48,639 bases of DNA from Hahellaceae bacterium. GTDB lineage: Bacteria; Pseudomonadota; Gammaproteobacteria; Pseudomonadales; Oleiphilaceae. The stretch's first letter is position 1, and each line of letters opens with the position of its first letter. The position numbers and the translations under genes are program-made. This document shows, piece after piece, positions 10,984-20,896 of the stretch. The notes beneath the pieces were generated by a model that saw only the letters and a program-made list of their open reading frames with translations, was not told where the DNA came from and did no database searches. The DNA lies in contig JADGDV010000008.1 in assembly GCA_016744695.1 (NCBI GenBank), forward strand, positions 94,637 to 143,275. Reading direction: 5' to 3'.

Positions 10984-12030
10984 ATGTCTGCGCATCAACT
11001 TGCATCAATTATTAACCTTATTCTGAACGAATCAAGTTCTGCTGAATGTTTACATGATGCACTCGATCAGTTTGCTGAGATCTGCAGTGAGGTTAGCGGA
11101 ATAGTACCTGATTCAAGCTTTGACGGCTGGGCGGAAGATACCTTTCTTGACAGTGGCATGGCGATTAATCCACAAGCGGCTGCGTACTGCATTAAAGATT
11201 ATCAGCGCAGTGTGATATTTATTCGTGGTGTTTATGCCGCAATAAAATCTGCGCAGGAAAGGTTTGAAAATACACCGATTACAATCCTTTATGCGGGGTG
11301 TGGGCCCTTTGCAACGCTGTTGTTACCGTTGCTGTGCAAGTTTAAATCTGGTGAGCTGGATATTCACCTCTTGGATATCCATCAACAATCTCTTAATAGT
11401 GTTAAGCAGTTGATTACTTATTTTGACTTTAATCATCACACGGTTAAATTACTTCAAGGTGATGCCTGTAAGTATCAGCACTCTACTACTCTGCATGTAA
11501 TTATTGCCGAAACAATGCAAAAGTCCCTTGAGCAAGAGCCACAATTTGCGGTGACGGCCAATTTAGCACCTCAGCTAGTGCCTCAGGGAATATTTATCCC
11601 ACAAAAAATTGAAGTAGAGCTATGCTTGGCTCACTTGGAGAACGAAAAAGAGTGGTTTAAGTTGTGTGGTCATATTGATTCAGGTGAGTTAATAAAAGCA
11701 GGTAAGCGACACTCCCTAGGCACTATTTTTACACTCTTGCCTGATCAAGCGTCTATACAGATGAGCGAAGCAAGCCGTAACAAAGATACCTCAGCGTTAG
11801 AGTTAGGTTCTCAAATCGTTCGTATTCCCTCTGTCGATAAGCTTGAAAGTTATGATGTGCTGATGTTTACGCGTATTCAGGTTTTCGAACAATACCATTT
11901 AAAAGACTACGAGGCAGATCTTACATTACCGCATAAGTGTCATGACCTTTCGCCCTTGAAATGCGGGGCAGCATACCGAGTATGTTACCAGCTGGGCAAT
12001 TATCCCCGATTCGATCTTAGCGAAGTATAA
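10984..12030 (+). CDS. Class I SAM-dependent methyltransferase, specificity unknown
   Basis: A 348-aa soluble protein. Residues about 95-200 form a Rossmann-type methyltransferase core: motif I ITILYAGCGPFATLLLPLL, acidic motif II strand ELDIHLLDIHQQSL (ribose-binding Asp), VKLLQGDACKY and motif IV LHVIIAETMQKSLEQEP. The AETMQ segment followed by LVPQGIFIPQKIEVEL recalls the loop and beta-barrel layout of PRMT-like enzymes, but the double-Glu loop is not clear, so the acceptor cannot be assigned. A ~90-residue helical N-terminal region precedes the core and a beta-rich C-terminal part follows. The gene is upstream of the RND-P450 gene on the same strand, but 167 bases with direct repeats lie between, so co-transcription is open. 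Confidence 0.75.
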   Translation: MSAHQLASIINLILNESSSAECLHDALDQFAEICSEVSGIVPDSSFDGWAEDTFLDSGMAINPQAAAYCIKDYQRSVIFIRGVYAAIKSAQERFENTPITILYAGCGPFATLLLPLLCKFKSGELDIHLLDIHQQSLNSVKQLITYFDFNHHTVKLLQGDACKYQHSTTLHVIIAETMQKSLEQEPQFAVTANLAPQLVPQGIFIPQKIEVELCLAHLENEKEWFKLCGHIDSGELIKAGKRHSLGTIFTLLPDQASIQMSEASRNKDTSALELGSQIVRIPSVDKLESYDVLMFTRIQVFEQYHLKDYEADLTLPHKCHDLSPLKCGAAYRVCYQLGNYPRFDLSEV

Positions 12031-12040
12031 ATGTCATAAG

Positions 12041-12091
12041 TTGTTATAAGTTCAACACCTGCGCTTTGTTATAAGTGTTTTATGGTACAAT
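12041..12091 (+). promoter_or_regulatory. Direct repeat and possible promoter upstream of the RND-P450 gene
   Basis: TTGTTATAAGT occurs twice, at 12041-12051 and 12066-12076, 25 bases apart, with a further partial copy (CATAAG, 12035-12040). A TACAAT hexamer at 12086-12091 could be a -10 box, but no -35 at a good distance is clear. Paired direct repeats just before a structural operon suggest a regulator site. Only the repeat itself is seen; the rest is inference. Confidence 0.4.
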
Positions 12092-12197
12092 TGTGCATTA
12101 AATTCATTCCGGTCATGCTAAAAAATTTTGCTTTAATGTATATCAGATCCTAAATTTAAGGGACTGCTTGCTGTACTTATATCCTCGGAGGATAGTA

Positions 12198-15100
12198 ATG
12201 CCCCAGCTACTAATTGAGTGGGTCTTAGCAAAGCCTAAACAGGTTTTGTTATGGACGCTTATTGTTACCGTAATGGCCAGTATTGGCTATAAAAATGTGA
12301 GCCTTAATACCTCTTATAAATCTTTTTTTGATAGTGATGATACCCTGCTTATCGCCATGAATGAGCAGGAGGCTACGTACTCCAAATATGACAATATGGT
12401 GATTATTGTCGGCGTTAATGAGGGGGATGTTTTCACGCCTTCAGCCTTGCAGGCATTACATGAGCTAACTGAGGGGGGCTGGTTAGCACCGTACTCATCG
12501 CGTGTAGATTCTATTATCAACTACAACCATACCGAAGGCCTGGAAGATGAACTGCTGGTTTCACAAATTCTAGAAAAACCTTCTCAACTCTCCAGTAAAG
12601 AAATTAATAAAGCTAAAAATACGGTGATGTCTACACCTGCACTGGTAGGAAACTACGTCGCCAAAGATGCAACGGCCGCCACTGTCTTTATGACATTTGA
12701 GATATCTGATAACCCTATCGGTGAGACCGCTGAAATATCTAAATATATACATCAGTTAGTAGGGGAGGTTCAGTTGAACCACCCTGAGCTGGAGTTATAT
12801 GTGACGGGTACCGTAGAAAATGCAGAGGCCTTCGCCAATGCCACTATTCAAGATGTAATAACGCTGATCCCTATTGGTTACGGGATTATGGTATTGCTGC
12901 TAATTACCTTAATGCGCAGTGTTTGGGGTACCTTGATTACCCTGACCATTGTGACCTTTTCTACTGTGATCGCGATGGGTTTAAAAACATGGGGTAGCGG
13001 TGATATTAACTCGGTAAACTCTTTTGCTCCCACCATGATCATGACCATAGCAGTCGCTGATTGCGTACACTTATTTGTGAGTTTCTTTCAGCATTATCGC
13101 GCAGGGCAACCCAAAGTTAGCGCAATGCGTTTGGCGCTGAATCATAATTTCAAATCTATTTTTCTAACCAGTCTCACTACCGCTATCGGTTTTGCTTGTT
13201 TAAATTTTCATGAGTCTCCTATGTACCGCGAGTTAGGTAATGTTGTTGCGGTAGGGGTCATGGTTGCTTTTGCATTATGCGTCACTTTATTACCCGCATT
13301 TGTTTTGGTATTGCCTGTAAAAGCGGGCAGGGCACAGGTTAAGTCAAAACGTTTTATGCTTGCCTGGAGCAACTTCGTCATTACTCAACGTAAGAAAATT
13401 CTGACTGTTGCAGTCACCCTTATGACGGTATTGATCGTGTTTGGTTTACCGCGCAATGAGCTGAACGAAATGTTTACTGAGTATATGGATGAAACCTTTA
13501 GCTTTCGCCAAGCCAATGATTTTCTTAATGAGCGAGTAGGTGGTTTGCATCGTTTGTTATATTCCATTGATTCAGGCTCAGAAAATGGCGTTCATACGCA
13601 AGAATATCTTGCTGTACTTGAAGACTACACGAATTGGCTACGACTGCAGCCCGAAGTCGCTTACGTGGGCAGTTATACCGATATTCAGAAACGCATTAAT
13701 AAGGCGATGCATGAAAATCAGGAAAGCTATTACCGAGTACCTGATGATCTAGCGTTAGCATCACAATATGCCTTGTTATATGAGTTATCTTTGCCATTCG
13801 GGCAAGGTCTGACGAATGTGGTGAGTATCGATAAGCGCAGCACTTTACTCATTGCAATTCTATTTGAATCAGATTCCAACAGCATGATTCGATTTAATGA
13901 TCGGGCAGAACAGTGGCTTAAAGATAATGCGCCTGAGTCAATGCATAGCCGTGGAGCGGGTCTGGATTTGATGTTTTCCAAGATGGCGCAACAAAATATT
14001 CCTTCAATGGTCTACGGCACCTTTTTTACTATGTTGCTTATTTCGGTCATTTTGATTATTGCTTTGCGTTCCTGGAGTTTAGGTTTTGTTAGTGTGTTAA
14101 CCAATATCTTCCCCGCCTTACTGGCATTTAGCTTTTGGGGATTTGTAGATGGACGCATTGGCATTGGTGTCGCCGCTGTTGCTACGCTTACGTTAGGTTT
14201 AGTGGTAGATGACACTATCCACTTCTTACACCGATTTAATGAGTCCAGACGAGCAGGTAAGTCTGTAGAAGATGCGGTTCGTGAGACCTTATCAACCACT
14301 GGCATGGCGATGATTACCATCACCCTTGTATTTGCGGGTGGCTTTGGTGCATTAAGTTTTTCTCATTATAGCGCCAATGCCGATTTAGGTTTAATGACGG
14401 CTGTTACTATTTTAATCGCATTAGTCATGGACTTAGTGGTGCTGCCTGCATGGCTTATTACACGTTATGCGACAAAGGACGCTAGTGATCTTGAGTTAGC
14501 TGAAGGTAAGTCTATTCCAATGCCTGCAAAAGGTTTGTTAGGTCATCTTCCTTTGATGACGAACGGAGAGCATGGCTGTATGTATGATGCCATGTTGAGC
14601 TTGCGTGATGCGCATGGTGATATTTTTCAGTTAGAGATTTTAAATAAGCCTTGGGTGGTAGTGTCTGATAAAGACATGATTCAACAGATTCTTGTTAAAG
14701 ACCGAGAGCGTTTCCCAAAGGCGGGTGATGCAGTGGATGAAATGAAATCCATTGGGGGAGAGTTAGGTATCCTTGTTACCGAAGGCAAGCAATGGTTAAG
14801 GCAGAGGCAATTAGTGATGCCTGCTTTTAGGCCTGCTCAGCTTAAAGCCATGATGGCAGACATGAATGAAATTTCTCATCGTGCGGTTGCCGAGCTAGGA
14901 AAGAGTGCAGAGACTGAAATTGAAGCCAAAGATTTTCTAAACCGAGTGGCGCTTGCCATTATCTGCCACGTAGGCTTTGATTATCGCATTGATTCATTTC
15001 AGCCAGATGACAAAACAGACCCACTGCTAGAAGCGCAAGACATTCAGAGTAAAGAGCTGATGAAGCGTATTCAGCGAACAAAGTACTGGAAGAAATTGCC

Positions 15101-15887
15101 TCTACCCTCTAATTATCGCTTAGACAAAATGATGCAGGTACAGCGCAGAATATTTGAAGACATCATTAAAGAGCACCGAGAAGGACGAGCAGAATCAAAA
15201 GTATTAATAGATCAGATGATCACCGCCACGGATGAAAATGGTGAGCACGTGTCTGATGATGAGCTAGTTCAATTAGTCCATAGCTTTATTGCAGCCGGTC
15301 ATGAAACCTCTGGCGCATTTCTTCAGTGGACATTGTATTACCTTGCCACTCATCCTGAGCTACAGGAGCAGTTAAGGGATGAATTAAACACTGTACTGGG
15401 TGATGAAGAAGACATTACTTACGAGCACTATCAAAACCTTACCTTGATGGATCAGGTGTTGAAAGAGAGCCTACGTTTGCGGCCTCCAATCCCTATTATG
15501 CTTCGTTCCACCTCTGAAGATTTAACTCTCCAAGGTTACCGTGTAAAGAAAGACACACCGATCTTGATTATGCTGGGGGCAATGCAAAAAGACCCTAAAT
15601 ATTGGGGGGATAACGCTAATTTCTTTGATGTTGCTCACTTTGATAAAGAGGCAGAATCTAACCGTGAACGATTTGTTTATGCCCCTTTTGGTTTAGGGCC
15701 CCGAATTTGTGTTGGGCATCGTTTTACGATGATTGAGGCTGCGGTAATTATTGGACAGTTAGTACGTAACTACCGATTTACATGGCCAGAGGGGCAAAAG
15801 GTAGAACCGATTTTGGCATTGGTTTGGACAACGAAACAATCAATGCGTTTTAAGATTGAGCCCATTACATCAGGAGGGTCTAAATAA
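12198..15887 (+). CDS. RND/MMPL-family exporter fused to cytochrome P450
   Basis: A single uninterrupted 1229-aa polypeptide. Residues ~1-765 are a complete 12-TM RND exporter of the MMPL/HpnN/Patched-like type. TM1 (14-32) is followed by a large periplasmic loop, TM2-6 (~224-396), TM7 (~405-425), a second loop and TM8-12 (~612-765). Proton-relay-type acidic residues sit in TM4 (AVADCVHLF, D288) and TM10 (GLVVDDTIHFLHR, D671/D672). Residues ~775-1229 are a full P450: I-helix AGHETS (1033-1038), ExxR (E1090, R1093) and heme loop FGLGPRICVG with ligand C1171. The start is ATG 12198 with GGAGGA five bases upstream. RND C-termini are cytoplasmic, so the P450 should be tethered to the inner face of the inner membrane. 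An in-frame ATG (residue 775) could give free P450. No ferredoxin or reductase gene is nearby. The substrate is unknown. Confidence 0.93.
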   Translation: MPQLLIEWVLAKPKQVLLWTLIVTVMASIGYKNVSLNTSYKSFFDSDDTLLIAMNEQEATYSKYDNMVIIVGVNEGDVFTPSALQALHELTEGGWLAPYSSRVDSIINYNHTEGLEDELLVSQILEKPSQLSSKEINKAKNTVMSTPALVGNYVAKDATAATVFMTFEISDNPIGETAEISKYIHQLVGEVQLNHPELELYVTGTVENAEAFANATIQDVITLIPIGYGIMVLLLITLMRSVWGTLITLTIVTFSTVIAMGLKTWGSGDINSVNSFAPTMIMTIAVADCVHLFVSFFQHYRAGQPKVSAMRLALNHNFKSIFLTSLTTAIGFACLNFHESPMYRELGNVVAVGVMVAFALCVTLLPAFVLVLPVKAGRAQVKSKRFMLAWSNFVITQRKKILTVAVTLMTVLIVFGLPRNELNEMFTEYMDETFSFRQANDFLNERVGGLHRLLYSIDSGSENGVHTQEYLAVLEDYTNWLRLQPEVAYVGSYTDIQKRINKAMHENQESYYRVPDDLALASQYALLYELSLPFGQGLTNVVSIDKRSTLLIAILFESDSNSMIRFNDRAEQWLKDNAPESMHSRGAGLDLMFSKMAQQNIPSMVYGTFFTMLLISVILIIALRSWSLGFVSVLTNIFPALLAFSFWGFVDGRIGIGVAAVATLTLGLVVDDTIHFLHRFNESRRAGKSVEDAVRETLSTTGMAMITITLVFAGGFGALSFSHYSANADLGLMTAVTILIALVMDLVVLPAWLITRYATKDASDLELAEGKSIPMPAKGLLGHLPLMTNGEHGCMYDAMLSLRDAHGDIFQLEILNKPWVVVSDKDMIQQILVKDRERFPKAGDAVDEMKSIGGELGILVTEGKQWLRQRQLVMPAFRPAQLKAMMADMNEISHRAVAELGKSAETEIEAKDFLNRVALAIICHVGFDYRIDSFQPDDKTDPLLEAQDIQSKELMKRIQRTKYWKKLPLPSNYRLDKMMQVQRRIFEDIIKEHREGRAESKVLIDQMITATDENGEHVSDDELVQLVHSFIAAGHETSGAFLQWTLYYLATHPELQEQLRDELNTVLGDEEDITYEHYQNLTLMDQVLKESLRLRPPIPIMLRSTSEDLTLQGYRVKKDTPILIMLGAMQKDPKYWGDNANFFDVAHFDKEAESNRERFVYAPFGLGPRICVGHRFTMIEAAVIIGQLVRNYRFTWPEGQKVEPILALVWTTKQSMRFKIEPITSGGSK

Positions 15888-17263
15888 TGGAAAATATTAT
15901 GAGACCCCTTAGTGTTCATGAAGCAAGTTTTCCTGTTTATGCAGCGCTTTCACCCGGTGGCGGCAACATTGTTGTGTGTTTGCGCTTACAGGGTGAGTTA
16001 TCTTCTGAGCAGGCAGAAGAAGGTTTAAATAAGTTGATGAAGGCAGAGGCTTCGCTTCGAGCGGCTTGTCAGTGGCTGCATCCAGAAGGCGAACCTGAAG
16101 GTTATTACTTTGTGACGCCGAATGAGACAACATTACCTTTTGAGGTACACACTGTTGAAAGTGAAAAATATGAAGCGGCCATTACAACAGTACGTACCAC
16201 TCTGCTTAATCAGTCTTTTCAAGCAGGCAAGTTATTATGGCGTGCGCGTTTGGTTTCTAGTGCTCAGCAACATTGCTTAGTCTTCTGCATTAATCATTGT
16301 GTATCTGATGGCACGTCTGTTTATTACTTTATGAATCGCTGGCTGGAAGCCTTACATAGTGAAAAACACTTAGCCGCTACCCGTGATGAGCTTGAGCGTC
16401 CACTTTGGCATTATATGCCTCAGAAAATCTCGGGCTTTCTGGGCGCGTTTCGATCTATGGGTATTCTTTCTACCTTTATGAAGGCTCAGAAGCTGGCTGA
16501 TCAAGGTTTATCGTTTGAGGTTACTGCCAATGTGCCAATTATGGAACATCGTTGTCGCTCCACATTTCGAACCTTAGATCAGGCACACTTTACGGGCTTG
16601 CTTAAGCTAGTAAAGGAAAATGGTAAAAGTATTCATGGTTTAATGTCTGCGGCCATGCTCAATACCTTATTGCATGACTGTGAAAAAAATGGTCGTCTTG
16701 AAAAGACTAAGCGTGTGTTCTCAATTCCCTTTGTGACCACCGTGAATGTGAGGGATAAAATATCCCCGCCTGTGGATGATTCTGTAGCAGGCTGCTTGTC
16801 TTCTGGTGTAACCAGTATGGTACGCGTTGATAAAGCACGTATCGAAAGTGACTATCAGCAATCCCCTTGGGGTTTAGGTGATCAGGTAGCTTCAGGTGTA
16901 ACAGATGCATTAGATGAGGATCAGCATTGGAAAGTACTACGTATCTATAAGTTAGCAGGCCTTAAAGGGCTGAAAAAAATGTTTATAGATAGCAGTGAAA
17001 AAGCACTTGCGACGCCTTTAAGCTTTGCTAATTTGGGGCGAGTTGTTTTCAATGGTGAAGGTAAGGGGGGGGCGTGTTCAGTGACAGGCTATGAAGTTTA
17101 TGCCGCTTTTCATGCGTCGGGTGCTGGGGTTAATATTGTAGCCAGCAGTTTAAAGGGTGCTTTAACGATTTGTTTTACTTGCCCTGACCCGGTAATGAGT
17201 CAGGAGACACTCGATGTTTATGCTGACTCAGTGATAGAGCAACTGAAGCAGTGGGCAAAATAG
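15887..17263 (+). CDS. Condensation-fold acyltransferase (PapA5/alcohol acetyltransferase-like)
   Basis: A 458-aa enzyme of the CoA-dependent acyltransferase/NRPS condensation-domain superfamily. Family landmarks are an N-terminal LSVHEASFPVYAAL, the active-site motif INHCVSDGTS (H137, D141, G142), a mid-protein HGLMSAAMLNTLLHD helix and a late SFANLGRVVF segment resembling alcohol acetyltransferases and PapA5. In the usual HHxxxDG motif the first His is Asn (N136), but the catalytic second His and structural Asp are kept, so activity is expected: acyl transfer to an alcohol or amine. Its ATG overlaps the stop of the RND-P450 gene (TAATG) behind AGGAGG, showing tight translational coupling. 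I infer that it acylates the P450 product or the exported molecule. Confidence 0.85.
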   Translation: MENIMRPLSVHEASFPVYAALSPGGGNIVVCLRLQGELSSEQAEEGLNKLMKAEASLRAACQWLHPEGEPEGYYFVTPNETTLPFEVHTVESEKYEAAITTVRTTLLNQSFQAGKLLWRARLVSSAQQHCLVFCINHCVSDGTSVYYFMNRWLEALHSEKHLAATRDELERPLWHYMPQKISGFLGAFRSMGILSTFMKAQKLADQGLSFEVTANVPIMEHRCRSTFRTLDQAHFTGLLKLVKENGKSIHGLMSAAMLNTLLHDCEKNGRLEKTKRVFSIPFVTTVNVRDKISPPVDDSVAGCLSSGVTSMVRVDKARIESDYQQSPWGLGDQVASGVTDALDEDQHWKVLRIYKLAGLKGLKKMFIDSSEKALATPLSFANLGRVVFNGEGKGGACSVTGYEVYAAFHASGAGVNIVASSLKGALTICFTCPDPVMSQETLDVYADSVIEQLKQWAK

Positions 17264-17271
17264 GGGAGTAA

Positions 17272-17895
17272 TTAAATCCCTATTTTGCTAGCGACTTTTT
17301 TCAGCTTGGCGCTTAAACGGTGTAACACTTTGTGTTTGCCTTTAGCCGCCTCGCTGGTCACGTAATTTGTCTGAATAGATTTACGCACGCCGGTACAGGG
17401 GCTATGACCATGCCAGCAGTTGTCTGTTACTTCAAATACAACCAAAGTACCTGCTGAGGGTATAATCTCTTCAACGTAGTTCTCTAAACTGTCTCCATTG
17501 TCCAGTACGCGCAGACGACCACCTAGCTGTGTCCAACTGTCGTTAAAGTAGACCAGAATCGTCATGACTTTAGTCTTTGAATCGGTATGAATTCGCCCGT
17601 CTTTTTGGCGCATCTGCCCTCTTACTGTCGTCATAACAGGGTATTCATCTAATTCTTTATTAAACTTCTTTGCTATGGCGTGGCGGAATGCATTGCCTTC
17701 AATCTCTTCAATTAACTTAGTAAACTTCTCTCCACCTTGGACTTCTGCAAGAGGGATGCTCCCGCCATGCTCTATGTCTGGAAAATCATCCAGAACACCC
17801 GCTAACGCATCGGGTAAAATAAAATTCTTTACCACCACATAAGGGTAAGGCTGAGTTCTAAGTTCTTCCTTGTTAAATGCCTCAAGATTGAGCAT
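17272..17895 (-). CDS. 2-oxoglutarate/Fe(II)-dependent oxygenase
   Basis: A 207-aa oxygenase with the double-stranded beta-helix of the prolyl-4-hydroxylase-like superfamily. The iron ligands and co-substrate Arg are visible: H103 and D105 in GRIHTDSKTK, H162 in NCWHGHSP, and R171 in GVRKSIQTNYV. Strands LVYFNDSWTQLGGRLRV and AGTLVVFE complete the core. The length suggests a small-molecule or amino-acid-residue hydroxylase; the substrate cannot be told. It converges on the acyltransferase gene with only eight bases between stops and may belong to the same functional block. The start ATG at 17895 has AAGGGA upstream. Its AT-rich 5' region holds a weak Fur-like match (see rejected list). Confidence 0.87.
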   Translation of the reverse strand: MLNLEAFNKEELRTQPYPYVVVKNFILPDALAGVLDDFPDIEHGGSIPLAEVQGGEKFTKLIEEIEGNAFRHAIAKKFNKELDEYPVMTTVRGQMRQKDGRIHTDSKTKVMTILVYFNDSWTQLGGRLRVLDNGDSLENYVEEIIPSAGTLVVFEVTDNCWHGHSPCTGVRKSIQTNYVTSEAAKGKHKVLHRLSAKLKKVASKIGI

Positions 17896-18144: not shown

Positions 18145-18654
18145 ATGCAGTTGCAATCAATAGATAAATCTACTTATCGAAAAAACCTTAACCGCGTTAT
18201 TGTGGCCATCATTATTATCTTGTTCACTTCGGCGTTAGGGAGTTCAACACTTCTAATTCAATTGTTTGGTGAGCCTAGTGGTTCAAATTTCGTTTTGAAT
18301 GTAATTGGTGTCGTTATTGCTGCGGGTATTATTGGGTTTCTTTTTTTTCGCTATAACGAACACCCTTATCTCTATGAGGTGATGTATGTGTGGCGATTGA
18401 AGCAGGAATTAAATCGTATATATAGAAAGACAGCGAAGCTAACGTTAGCGATAGAAAAAAATAACCCTGATGCGCTAGTCATTAAATACTTCAGTTTGAA
18501 AGGCTCAGAGCAGCTATATGAGTTAGATGATAATGATTTAACACTGAGTGACTTGAGAATAGAGATTAAAGCGCTGGATCGTAAAATCGACGCACTGGGT
18601 TTGAATATTAGTACCGATGATTATCACAAAAACTTATTAAATCAGCTCGATTAA
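18145..18654 (+). CDS. DUF3087 family membrane protein
   Basis: A 169-aa inner-membrane protein matching the DUF3087 pattern: MQLQSIDKSTYRKNLNRV, two TM helices (about 17-39 and 50-70), then HPYLYEVMYVWRLKQELNRI and a cytoplasmic alpha-helical tail with KGSEQLYELDDNDLTLSDL. The function is unknown. The DUF assignment rests on remembered family pattern (RYRKHLNR, VYYVWxLKQxLNRIYRK, LYELDDNTLTL). The 249 bases before it contain no gene; that stretch holds the promoters of this gene and of the divergent oxygenase. Confidence 0.75.
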   Translation: MQLQSIDKSTYRKNLNRVIVAIIIILFTSALGSSTLLIQLFGEPSGSNFVLNVIGVVIAAGIIGFLFFRYNEHPYLYEVMYVWRLKQELNRIYRKTAKLTLAIEKNNPDALVIKYFSLKGSEQLYELDDNDLTLSDLRIEIKALDRKIDALGLNISTDDYHKNLLNQLD

Positions 18655-18694: not shown

Positions 18695-20896
18695 GTGTCT
18701 GTAAATACACAATCAGAAAAAATAGAAATCATGAGTAAGCCTAAAAAGAAACTAAGCATGTCTACTGTTGTACTGCTTTCGTTTGCTGTTGGTATTGTGT
18801 GCGGTCTCATTTTTGGTGAAACGGTTGCCTGGATGTCTGTTATTGGTGACGCCTTCATCAAGCTCTTACAGATGACGGTTATTCCTTATATTATCGTATC
18901 GCTGATTTCCAGTTTAGGTACGTTGAGTTATGAGCAAGCTAAATCATTAGGCATTAATGTAGGTAAGTTGATGCTGATTATATGGCTGTTTGGTCTAGTA
19001 GTTATGTACTCAATTAAATGGACTTTTCCTGAATGGGAAGCGGGAGAGTTTTTCAGCCTGACTATTCTTGATGGCCCTAGTTCAGTCAACATGCTTGACC
19101 TGTATATTCCCTCAAACCCCTTTTTCTCAATGTCTAACAGTTATATACCTGCCATTGTACTTTTTTGTATTGCTACGGGCATTGCACTAATTTCAATTAA
19201 AGATAAAGACCCTTTAATTAAGCCTTTGCTATTGCTTGGCGAAGCGTTTAACAAAATAACGCAGTACATTGTTAAATTAATGCCTTTAGGTATTTTTGCA
19301 ATGACAGCGGCAACCGCAGGAACAATGGAGTTTGATGAATTTCAAAAACTACAGGTCTATTTTGCTGCACATATAGTCATGACTATACTGCTTACCTATT
19401 GGGTTTTGCCTGCTATCGTGGCTACGTTTACTCCGTTTTCTTATCGAGATATTGTAGGTATCGCTAATGATGCAATGGTGACGGCCTTTGCGGCAGGTAA
19501 TATTTTTATTATTTTACCCTTATTAATTGAACGCACTAAAGAGCTATTTCATAAGTACAATTTGGGTGATAAAGACACGGATAATTATGCAAATATAATT
19601 ATTCCCGTTGTGTTTAGCTTTCCTAATTTGGGTAAACTTTTGACGATCGTTTTTGTTTTATTTGCGGCATGGTTCTCAGGGGAGGAACTCGACTTTTTTA
19701 GTTATTTTCCGATGGCGATAAACGGGCTTGTTAGCTTGTTTGGTAGCGTGTATTTAACCATTCCCATGTTACTTGACTCGTTGGAATTATCATCTGATCT
19801 ATTTCAGCTTTATATGGTTTCAAGTTTGTTTACTAGCCGGTTTACGTCTCTTTTGGCTGCTATGAATATTTTTATATTAGCAGTGGGTGGAACGGCAATG
19901 CTCGCGGGTGTTGCTAAAATAAGCATGAGACGATTAGTGATTTATAGTGCATTAAGCCCCGTTGTATTTGGTGGTGTATTATTGGCCACGACGCTATTGT
20001 TAAACACCTTAGTTAATACCGAATATAAAATGGGTGAAGTGGTGGCCGATATGACGACGGCTTCAGAGGTTCCTGAGCAAGTGAGCACTTATAGTTGGGA
20101 TGATCAACAAAGCTCTGGGCAGCCACGCAGTATTGTTGAAATAAAGAAAAGTGGTGTATTACGTGTGGGATATAACCCCGTACAGATACCATTTTCTTAT
20201 TTTAATAGTAAAGGTGTGTTAGTCGGTTTTGATATCGACATGATGACAAAGCTAGCGGCAGAACTAGAGGTTGAGCTTGTGTTTGTGCCGTATGAGGCTA
20301 AAACGGTGATCAGTGCGATTAACCAAGGCCAGTTTGATATAGGTATCTCCGGTATTCAAATGACCACTCAGCGGCTACAAGTTGTAGACTTTACGACGCC
20401 CGTATTATCACTTCATTATACGTTTGTAGTTAAGGATTATCGTGCAGATGCAATTGTGGCTCAAGATACGACCGCAGCTAAAAGCCTCAGAGTGGCCTCA
20501 GTCGGTGATTATGCTATAACGCCGTTATTAAAGAAGAAATACCCTAGTTGGACATTTGATAGAATTGAATCTGATGGGCTCTTTTTTGGTGATGATGGTG
20601 AAACATGGGATGCCTTATTGATTAGTCTGGAGGCAGGCAAAACGTGGACAATGTTATATCCAGACTACACAACGCTTTATAACCGTGACGAAATTAAGTC
20701 ATTTCCAGCGTCTTATGTTGTAGCTTTAGGAAATACGCCCTTGCTAAAGTTCATGAACAGCTGGTTAGCTATCCAAACTTCATCGGGTAAAATTGACAGC
20801 TTATATAAGTATTGGATTTTAGGCGAAAATGCCAAGCCTAAAAAAGCCCGTTGGTCTGTAATTAAAGATGTACTACATTGGGGTAGTGATAAATAA
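18695..20896 (+). CDS. Dicarboxylate-symporter-like protein fused to a family-3 solute-binding domain
   Basis: A 733-aa fusion. Residues ~15-405 resemble the DAACS/GltP symporter family (opening VVLLSFAVGIVCGLIFGE, then LLQMTVIPYIIVSLISS). Residues ~485-715 are a periplasmic solute-binding domain (SBP_bac_3): SGVLRVGYNPVQIPFSYF, VGFDIDMMTKLAAEL and GQFDIGISGIQMTTQRLQ. An added hydrophobic segment (~413-437, LVIYSALSPVVFGGVLLAT) follows the eight symporter helices and would carry the binding domain to the periplasm. The usual signatures are altered: the serine-rich HP1 region reads TAFAAGNIF (263-271) and the NMDGT position reads PNLGK (310-314), so coupling ion and substrate may differ from GltP. 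The start is GTG 18695 behind AAGGGA; ATG 18731 is possible. Likely substrates are amino or dicarboxylic acids (inference). Confidence 0.85.
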   Translation: MSVNTQSEKIEIMSKPKKKLSMSTVVLLSFAVGIVCGLIFGETVAWMSVIGDAFIKLLQMTVIPYIIVSLISSLGTLSYEQAKSLGINVGKLMLIIWLFGLVVMYSIKWTFPEWEAGEFFSLTILDGPSSVNMLDLYIPSNPFFSMSNSYIPAIVLFCIATGIALISIKDKDPLIKPLLLLGEAFNKITQYIVKLMPLGIFAMTAATAGTMEFDEFQKLQVYFAAHIVMTILLTYWVLPAIVATFTPFSYRDIVGIANDAMVTAFAAGNIFIILPLLIERTKELFHKYNLGDKDTDNYANIIIPVVFSFPNLGKLLTIVFVLFAAWFSGEELDFFSYFPMAINGLVSLFGSVYLTIPMLLDSLELSSDLFQLYMVSSLFTSRFTSLLAAMNIFILAVGGTAMLAGVAKISMRRLVIYSALSPVVFGGVLLATTLLLNTLVNTEYKMGEVVADMTTASEVPEQVSTYSWDDQQSSGQPRSIVEIKKSGVLRVGYNPVQIPFSYFNSKGVLVGFDIDMMTKLAAELEVELVFVPYEAKTVISAINQGQFDIGISGIQMTTQRLQVVDFTTPVLSLHYTFVVKDYRADAIVAQDTTAAKSLRVASVGDYAITPLLKKKYPSWTFDRIESDGLFFGDDGETWDALLISLEAGKTWTMLYPDYTTLYNRDEIKSFPASYVVALGNTPLLKFMNSWLAIQTSSGKIDSLYKYWILGENAKPKKARWSVIKDVLHWGSDK

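Follow-up and report, generated by a model that had tools for sequence, protein, structure and literature searches.

The window analysed here, a 48,639-nucleotide stretch of contig JADGDV010000008.1 from a marine bacterium of the Hahellaceae, carries a gene that joins an RND/MMPL transporter to a cytochrome P450. The frame runs from an ATG at 12198 to a TAA at 15885-15887 and gives a product of 1229 residues (Table 1). As the preliminary description had proposed, one uninterrupted frame holds both parts, and both score far above their Pfam cut-offs: the MMPL domain is matched in two stretches at 148 bits (cut-off 20.5), and the p450 domain at 303.3 bits (cut-off 22.8), over residues 780-1208 and positions 9-448 of the 462-position profile. 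A sterol-sensing Pfam match on the fusion protein, at 26.9 bits, lies slightly over its cut-off of 22.3. The linker leads into a proline-rich P450 start, IPMPAKGLLGHLPLM, at residues 773-787. A scan of 11900-12260 found no promoter or terminator.

Table 1. Features of the fusion gene, its partner gene and the genes flanking them (window coordinates; TM, transmembrane helix)
Feature	Position	Strand	Basis
RND(MMPL)-P450 fusion gene, 1229 codons + stop	12198..15887	+	open frame; Pfam MMPL + p450; homologues L008/L053, L015
Shine-Dalgarno-like GGAGG ahead of fusion ATG 12198	12187..12191	+	sequence
RND/MMPL transporter domain, residues 1-755	12198..14462	+	Pfam MMPL; matches of unfused homologues mostly stop near residue 755
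D288 in TM4 (IAVADCVH), presumed proton-relay acid	13059..13061	+	alignment
D671/D672 in TM10 (VVDDTIHF), presumed proton-relay acids	14208..14213	+	alignment
Linker + proline-rich P450 start (IPxPxxGLLGHLPLM, residues 773-787)	14463..14558	+	motif in 3/3 fusions
Cytochrome P450 domain, residues 784-1229 for counts (Pfam 780-1208)	14547..15884	+	Pfam
I-helix AGHETS, residues 1033-1038, acid-alcohol pair	15294..15311	+	sequence
ExxR, E1090-R1093	15465..15476	+	sequence
Heme-ligand Cys1171 in FGLGPRICVG	15708..15710	+	sequence
PapA5-like/condensation-superfamily acyltransferase, 458 residues, NHxxxDG	15887..17263	+	Pfam PapA_C; best PDB match 8s6l
Flanking gene, outside cassette, methyltransferase-like by eye only	10984..12030	+	in 5/5 genus genomes
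DUF3087 gene, other conserved flank of insertion/loss site	18145..18654	+	Pfam

The main comparison set consists of the window genome, a single-contig congener (G002), and an Oleispira metagenome-assembled genome (MAG; G899) whose contig L015 carries a third fusion. The residues singled out in the preliminary description, D288, D671/D672, AGHETS, E1090/R1093 and C1171, all lie at the positions given there. Asp occupies the D288 position in the three fusions and in four of five other aligned RND proteins, with Ser in a fusion to an EAL domain that is described below. The first Asp of the TM10 pair is present in 8/8 aligned sequences and both are present in all three fusions, the second being Tyr in two unfused RND proteins. 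All three fusions retain AGHET, ExxR and the Cys ligand; the acid-alcohol pair, the mark of an O2-type I helix, reads AGHETS in the window and L015 and AGHETT in G002. As to the claim of a full set of 12 TM helices, 11 of the 12 expected pass a Kyte-Doolittle threshold of 1.5, the last (TM12) being residues 736-754, but TM5 falls below it, and the full count thus rests partly on homology. Hydropathy places the long loops of the RND part at about residues 35-219 and 419-604.

To establish how widely the fusion is distributed, searches were made at several taxonomic depths. Within the genus it occurs in two of five genomes, the window's own and G002, at 81% identity. The third copy, from the MAG labelled 'uncultured Oleispira', is 74% identical in the best segment and 76% across the aligned pair as a whole; the contig end cuts its P450 short at query residue 1185, and the frame is open across the junction. 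This copy came from a contig scan based on six short peptide patterns, an approach that reaches only close relatives. At family level (E <= 1e-80, with at most four candidates scored in each genome), the fusion is present in 2 of 163 genomes, and no other match listed at that threshold in these 163 extends beyond query residue 782. A match to the fusion at E <= 1e-70 is found in 125 of the 369 genomes of the class sample, with two candidates scored per genome, and among the matches listed the P450 is covered only by the window's own. None of the 794 matching plasmid records covers 80% of the fusion, and the viral contigs show a pattern match in one stretch and no gene for a relative. Distant fusions on other RND subfamilies, or outside the class, lie beyond the reach of these searches. 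Separately, an RND match in G299 (contig 7, 336004-337563) falls inside a 24526-residue open frame, perhaps a masked stretch.

The possibility raised in the preliminary description, that a sequencing error near the junction had joined two genes, is virtually ruled out, as is an assembly error, since the independent assemblies G002, in one contig, and L015 carry the same intact open frame across the junction. Nor are the homologues always split, a second reservation made there: the two-domain architecture recurs elsewhere, for three lineages in total, and the class and order samples yielded no split orthologue. The RND-P450 fusion is a real architecture made of known families, and it looks rare.

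Synonymous sites are saturated among the three fusions, and codon-position identities were used in place of the ratio of nonsynonymous to synonymous substitution rates. In each of the three pairs, and for RND and P450 alike, identity is 0.88-0.93 at second positions and 0.39-0.47 at third positions, which indicates purifying selection on both domains. The RND parts share 84.8/73.8% identity, and the linker, at 57-63%, is less conserved than the domains. Residues unique to the window, G002 and L015 number 32, 27 and 110 in the RND part and 21, 41 and 34 in the P450 (chi-square p 1.2e-6). These discordant branch lengths of the RND (12198-14462) and P450 (14547-15884) parts would fit either module exchange or lineage-specific rates.

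The best solved matches of the P450 domain are the heme domains of CYP102-type bifunctional P450/reductases. Whereas CYP102 (P450 BM3) carries a fused reductase, the P450 of the window protein has none and its partner is a transporter; the frame ends 21 residues past the Pfam p450 match, and the C-terminal reductase of cytochrome P450 reductase type seen in CYP102 is not present. A 1072-residue P450 frame in G771 (L057), considered as a further fusion, has its P450 N-terminal and was set aside as a CYP102-type reductase fusion by its layout only. As a CYP152 peroxygenase the domain scores 35.3 of the 600 bits required by NCBIfam CypC, and the acid-alcohol pair is present. The motifs MFIAMDPP and HTCMGNRL, which a passage of PMC7318663 gives for CYP153 alkane hydroxylases, are absent from the fused P450. 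The O. antarctica P450 gene C17420 is described there as non-CYP153 and undetected in the proteome.

Unfused relatives of the domain are remote. Two other P450s in the class sample, 26 and 29% identical, match at E <= 1e-45, and P450 matches at E <= 1e-25 occur in 82 of the 390 genomes of the order sample, where, among the matches listed, the best-scoring other P450 is 30% identical over 434 query residues and short pieces reach 31-40% (e.g., G643, 156 residues). One unfused P450 of the congener G004 is 28.8% identical, and in the 17-kb stretch around it no open frame matches the window RND. The best 8 of 843 plasmid P450 matches are 27.0-28.8% identical. The usual rule for a P450 family is 40% identity. 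As the best-scoring unfused relatives listed reach at most 30% over most of the domain, the fused P450 may, as far as these searches go, represent a new CYP family. The one other P450 of the window genome is CYP153-like, with near versions of the motifs (FIAMDPP and HRCMGNRL), and lies with a ferredoxin, a ferredoxin reductase and a divergent AraC regulator (L074, 4453-7521, minus strand; G000 contig 2). This ferredoxin and reductase could serve both P450s.

The best-scoring solved matches of the pump are MmpL5 and MmpL4, followed by HpnN and MmpL3, the latter two being lipid transporters. Its best NCBIfam subfamily match is HAE3 (TIGR00921; 142.8 of 351.9), and HpnN (TIGR03480) gives 114.8 of 751.85, both under the curated cut-offs. 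HpnN, HAE3 and MmpL4/5 belong to the same superfamily as the window pump and are among its best solved and NCBIfam matches, but the pump lies far under the curated cut-offs of HpnN and HAE3. A LolA-like gene adjoins the unfused homologue at four of the seven loci inspected (L051, L056, L069 and L070) and is not a neighbour at the other three (L052, L068 and L071). In Thalassolituus oleivorans, TOL_3187, described as MMPL plus LolA-like, is 42-fold up on the n-C28 alkane, according to a passage of PMC6304351; one passage of PMC5989066 leaves RND, MMPL and LolA unmentioned. The LolA-like neighbours and the induction of TOL_3187, which is linked to these pumps by description, point by analogy to a hydrophobic cargo, without proving it.

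Directly downstream of the fusion is an acyltransferase gene. Its product scores 38.4 bits with Pfam PapA_C (cut-off 30) and 22.1 of 396 bits, under the cut-off, with NCBIfam PapA5 (PRK09294); its best solved relative is the phthiocerol dimycocerosyl transferase entry 8s6l (E 7.8e-11), which we take to be PapA5. In the window and G002 the start overlaps the fusion stop as TAATG, and in the window a Shine-Dalgarno-like AGGAGGG lies ahead of it within the end of the P450 gene; judging from this arrangement, the acyltransferase is probably translationally coupled to the fusion gene. In the MAG, contig C108 carries a P450 frame that the contig end cuts in the linker and that stays open as far as that end; the acyltransferase comes next, the two overlapping as ATGA. 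As this contig begins in the linker, fusion of that copy is not directly visible. The MAG holds two P450 versions whose DNA is 90% identical (L080 8861-10146 against L015 8467-9752), and that on C108 is the second, a strain variant or a paralogue. At E <= 1e-8 the acyltransferase is found in 2 of the 163 family genomes, the same two that carry the fusion, and also in the MAG. Its plasmid relatives comprise four records, all Streptomyces, at 22.6-24.1% identity.

In the window and G002 this cassette lies between the flanking gene, for which no Pfam or NCBIfam match was found, and DUF3087, and these two directly adjoin in the congeners G001, G003 and G004; the cassette is thus missing from three of five genus genomes. 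The MAG flanks differ from those of the window and G002. From this flank comparison, the fusion and acyltransferase genes appear to have been acquired or lost together, and in no fewer than two settings. After the acyltransferase the MAG has an AraC-type regulator gene that the window and G002 lack there; its matches to multidrug-efflux regulators are all under cut-off. Just upstream of the MAG fusion are MaoC-like dehydratase and NHL-repeat-like genes (L015 4006-4905, plus strand). Between the acyltransferase and DUF3087 the window has a 2-oxoglutarate-Fe(II) oxygenase gene (17272-17895, minus strand), where G002 has a DUF1194/PEP-CTERM gene. A second transporter fusion in the window, at 18695-20896 on the plus strand, places SDF (sodium:dicarboxylate symporter) ahead of a family 3 solute-binding domain in one 733-residue frame.

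Other members of this RND family also bear C-terminal domains. An RND/MMPL protein in G157 (L055 3750-6902, minus strand) ends in an EAL domain with no extra helix, its TM4 being without Asp, and two others (L054 4326-7532, plus strand, in G010; L067 1324-4533, minus strand, in G249) end in a LolA-like domain, which in L054, the only one examined for this, follows a 13th hydrophobic helix. EAL is a cytoplasmic signaling domain, while the LolA-like fold is a periplasmic carrier. The EAL fusion resembles the window protein in placing a cytoplasmic-type domain on the same RND end with no added TM helix; it differs in having a c-di-GMP phosphodiesterase-type domain in place of the P450 and an RND part only 25.7% identical. 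The LolA-like fusions likewise are homologous RND proteins with a partner on the same end, L054 coming from the same bacterial family, and TOL_3187 is likened to them by description only. However, the LolA-like domain of L054 should be periplasmic owing to its 13th helix, and the window P450 should not. Because the EAL relative has no extra helix and the LolA-like domain of L054 comes after one, the P450 should be cytoplasmic, a placement well supported by analogy; the cytoplasmic RND C-terminus assumed in the preliminary description is strengthened by these natural relatives. Together they hint that this RND family serves as a platform for C-terminal add-on domains. These fusions, the acyltransferase overlap and the cassette-like presence and absence are additions to the preliminary description.

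PapA-type enzymes esterify hydroxyls, and MMPL-type RND proteins export lipids or other amphiphiles. With a P450, a PapA-type enzyme and an MMPL-type RND in one translational unit, the likeliest order of events would be oxidation, acylation and export, and the reading that we favor, tentatively and at somewhat short of an even chance, is a lipid-tailoring export machine. Here the pump would hold the P450 as a cytoplasmic C-terminal domain, TM12 would stand in for the P450 membrane anchor, and cellular ferredoxin and reductase would supply the electrons. At the inner leaflet, the P450 would hydroxylate a substrate of lipid or hydrocarbon type; the PapA5-like enzyme would acylate a hydroxyl, probably the new one, and the pump would carry the ester outward by proton motive force. 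Direct channeling from P450 to pump is something that we infer only. A broader version, in which the P450-bearing exporter and the coupled acyltransferase make and export an oxidized ester in one complex, the pump C-terminus is a socket for P450, EAL or LolA-like partners, and P450 modules may swap between copies, is more doubtful.

Several observations weigh against a lipid-tailoring export machine. MmpL5 and MmpL4, the top solved matches, are labeled siderophore exporters in several entries, and a lipid cargo is therefore not implied by similarity alone. By tblastn the window has no LolA-like gene, which leaves crossing of the periplasm unaccounted for at this locus, and no redox gene was found adjoining the cassette. 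The acyltransferase motif is NHxxxDG in 3/3 copies instead of HHxxxDG, the second His being retained. In the third lineage, the MAG, no single contig shows fusion and acyltransferase together. The cassette is dispensable in the three genus genomes that are without it, and the discordant domain branch lengths weaken a simple tight co-evolution of pump and P450. An AlphaFold2 model from a two-sequence alignment had a mean predicted local distance difference test score of 30.9 and was not used.

The same features can be read in other ways. The pump might merely tether the P450, which would oxidize membrane lipids or hydrocarbons and not pass its product on. A junction at a free C-terminus behind a less conserved linker (57-63% identity), the different relative branch lengths of the two domains (p 1.2e-6) and the unrelated partners, EAL and LolA-like, taken by the same pump end all agree with this. 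A mere anchor would not need a whole transporter, however, and the pump is conserved (84.8/73.8% identity) with D288 and D671/D672 in 3/3 fusions, which leaves a tether unlikely. We hold it distinctly unlikely that the system serves detoxification, with the P450 oxidizing foreign or self-toxic hydrophobic compounds at the inner leaflet for the pump to expel: the linked acyltransferase points to biosynthesis, and the AraC-type regulator of the MAG is missing from the corresponding place in the window and G002. Consistent with such a role are the presence of that regulator in the MAG, with its below-cut-off matches to multidrug-efflux regulators, the general action of both RND pumps and P450s against hydrophobic compounds, the hydrophobe/amphiphile efflux subfamily HAE3 as best NCBIfam match, albeit below cut-off, and the patchy presence in 2/5 genus genomes.

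To our knowledge, the RND transporters characterized so far all export, which speaks against a pump that brings long-chain alkanes in for the P450 to oxidize on arrival. The fused P450 also lacks the CYP153 motifs, a CYP153-like P450 with redox genes is encoded elsewhere in the genome, and a PapA-like enzyme is unnecessary for catabolism. Uptake is thus improbable, even though in Thalassolituus n-C28 strongly induces an MMPL plus LolA-like protein, which a passage of PMC6304351 takes up in connection with long-chain alkane transport, and although O. antarctica uses aliphatic alkanes almost exclusively (abstract of PMC7318663). Least probable of these functional readings, with a small chance, is a P450 domain that acts as a ligand or redox sensor gating the pump and not as an enzyme. 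The EAL domain in the same position in a relative does indicate that members of this pump family can carry C-terminal domains of a regulatory kind, but the fusions keep AGHET, ExxR and the Cys ligand in 3/3 cases, as a monooxygenase requires.

Coupling of a tailoring enzyme to RND export is known mainly through protein-protein contacts such as MmpL7-PpsE, and PapA5 works in the same phthiocerol dimycocerosate (PDIM) pathway. The contact itself, in which MmpL7, an MMPL-type pump, binds PpsE of the synthesis machinery, is described in the abstract of PMC1238737 and is a precedent for pump-enzyme coupling. The window cassette would resemble this mycobacterial synthesis and export system in its presumed pump-synthesis coupling, and resembles it in its PapA5-like acyltransferase; it differs in having no adjacent polyketide synthase, a P450 as the fused enzyme and low acyltransferase similarity. 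No RND-P450 fusion was found in the portions of the literature covered by our search. For known P450 fusions, the preliminary description names redox or peroxidase partners. The RND-P450 polypeptide appears to be a new domain architecture; enzyme-transporter coupling and fusion are already known. If the lipid-tailoring export machine proves true, the window protein would show a tailoring enzyme and an RND exporter coupled within one polypeptide, in a Gram-negative bacterium from the environment that can be studied without pathogens, and would point to a molecule, as yet unknown, that relatives of oil-degrading marine bacteria export.

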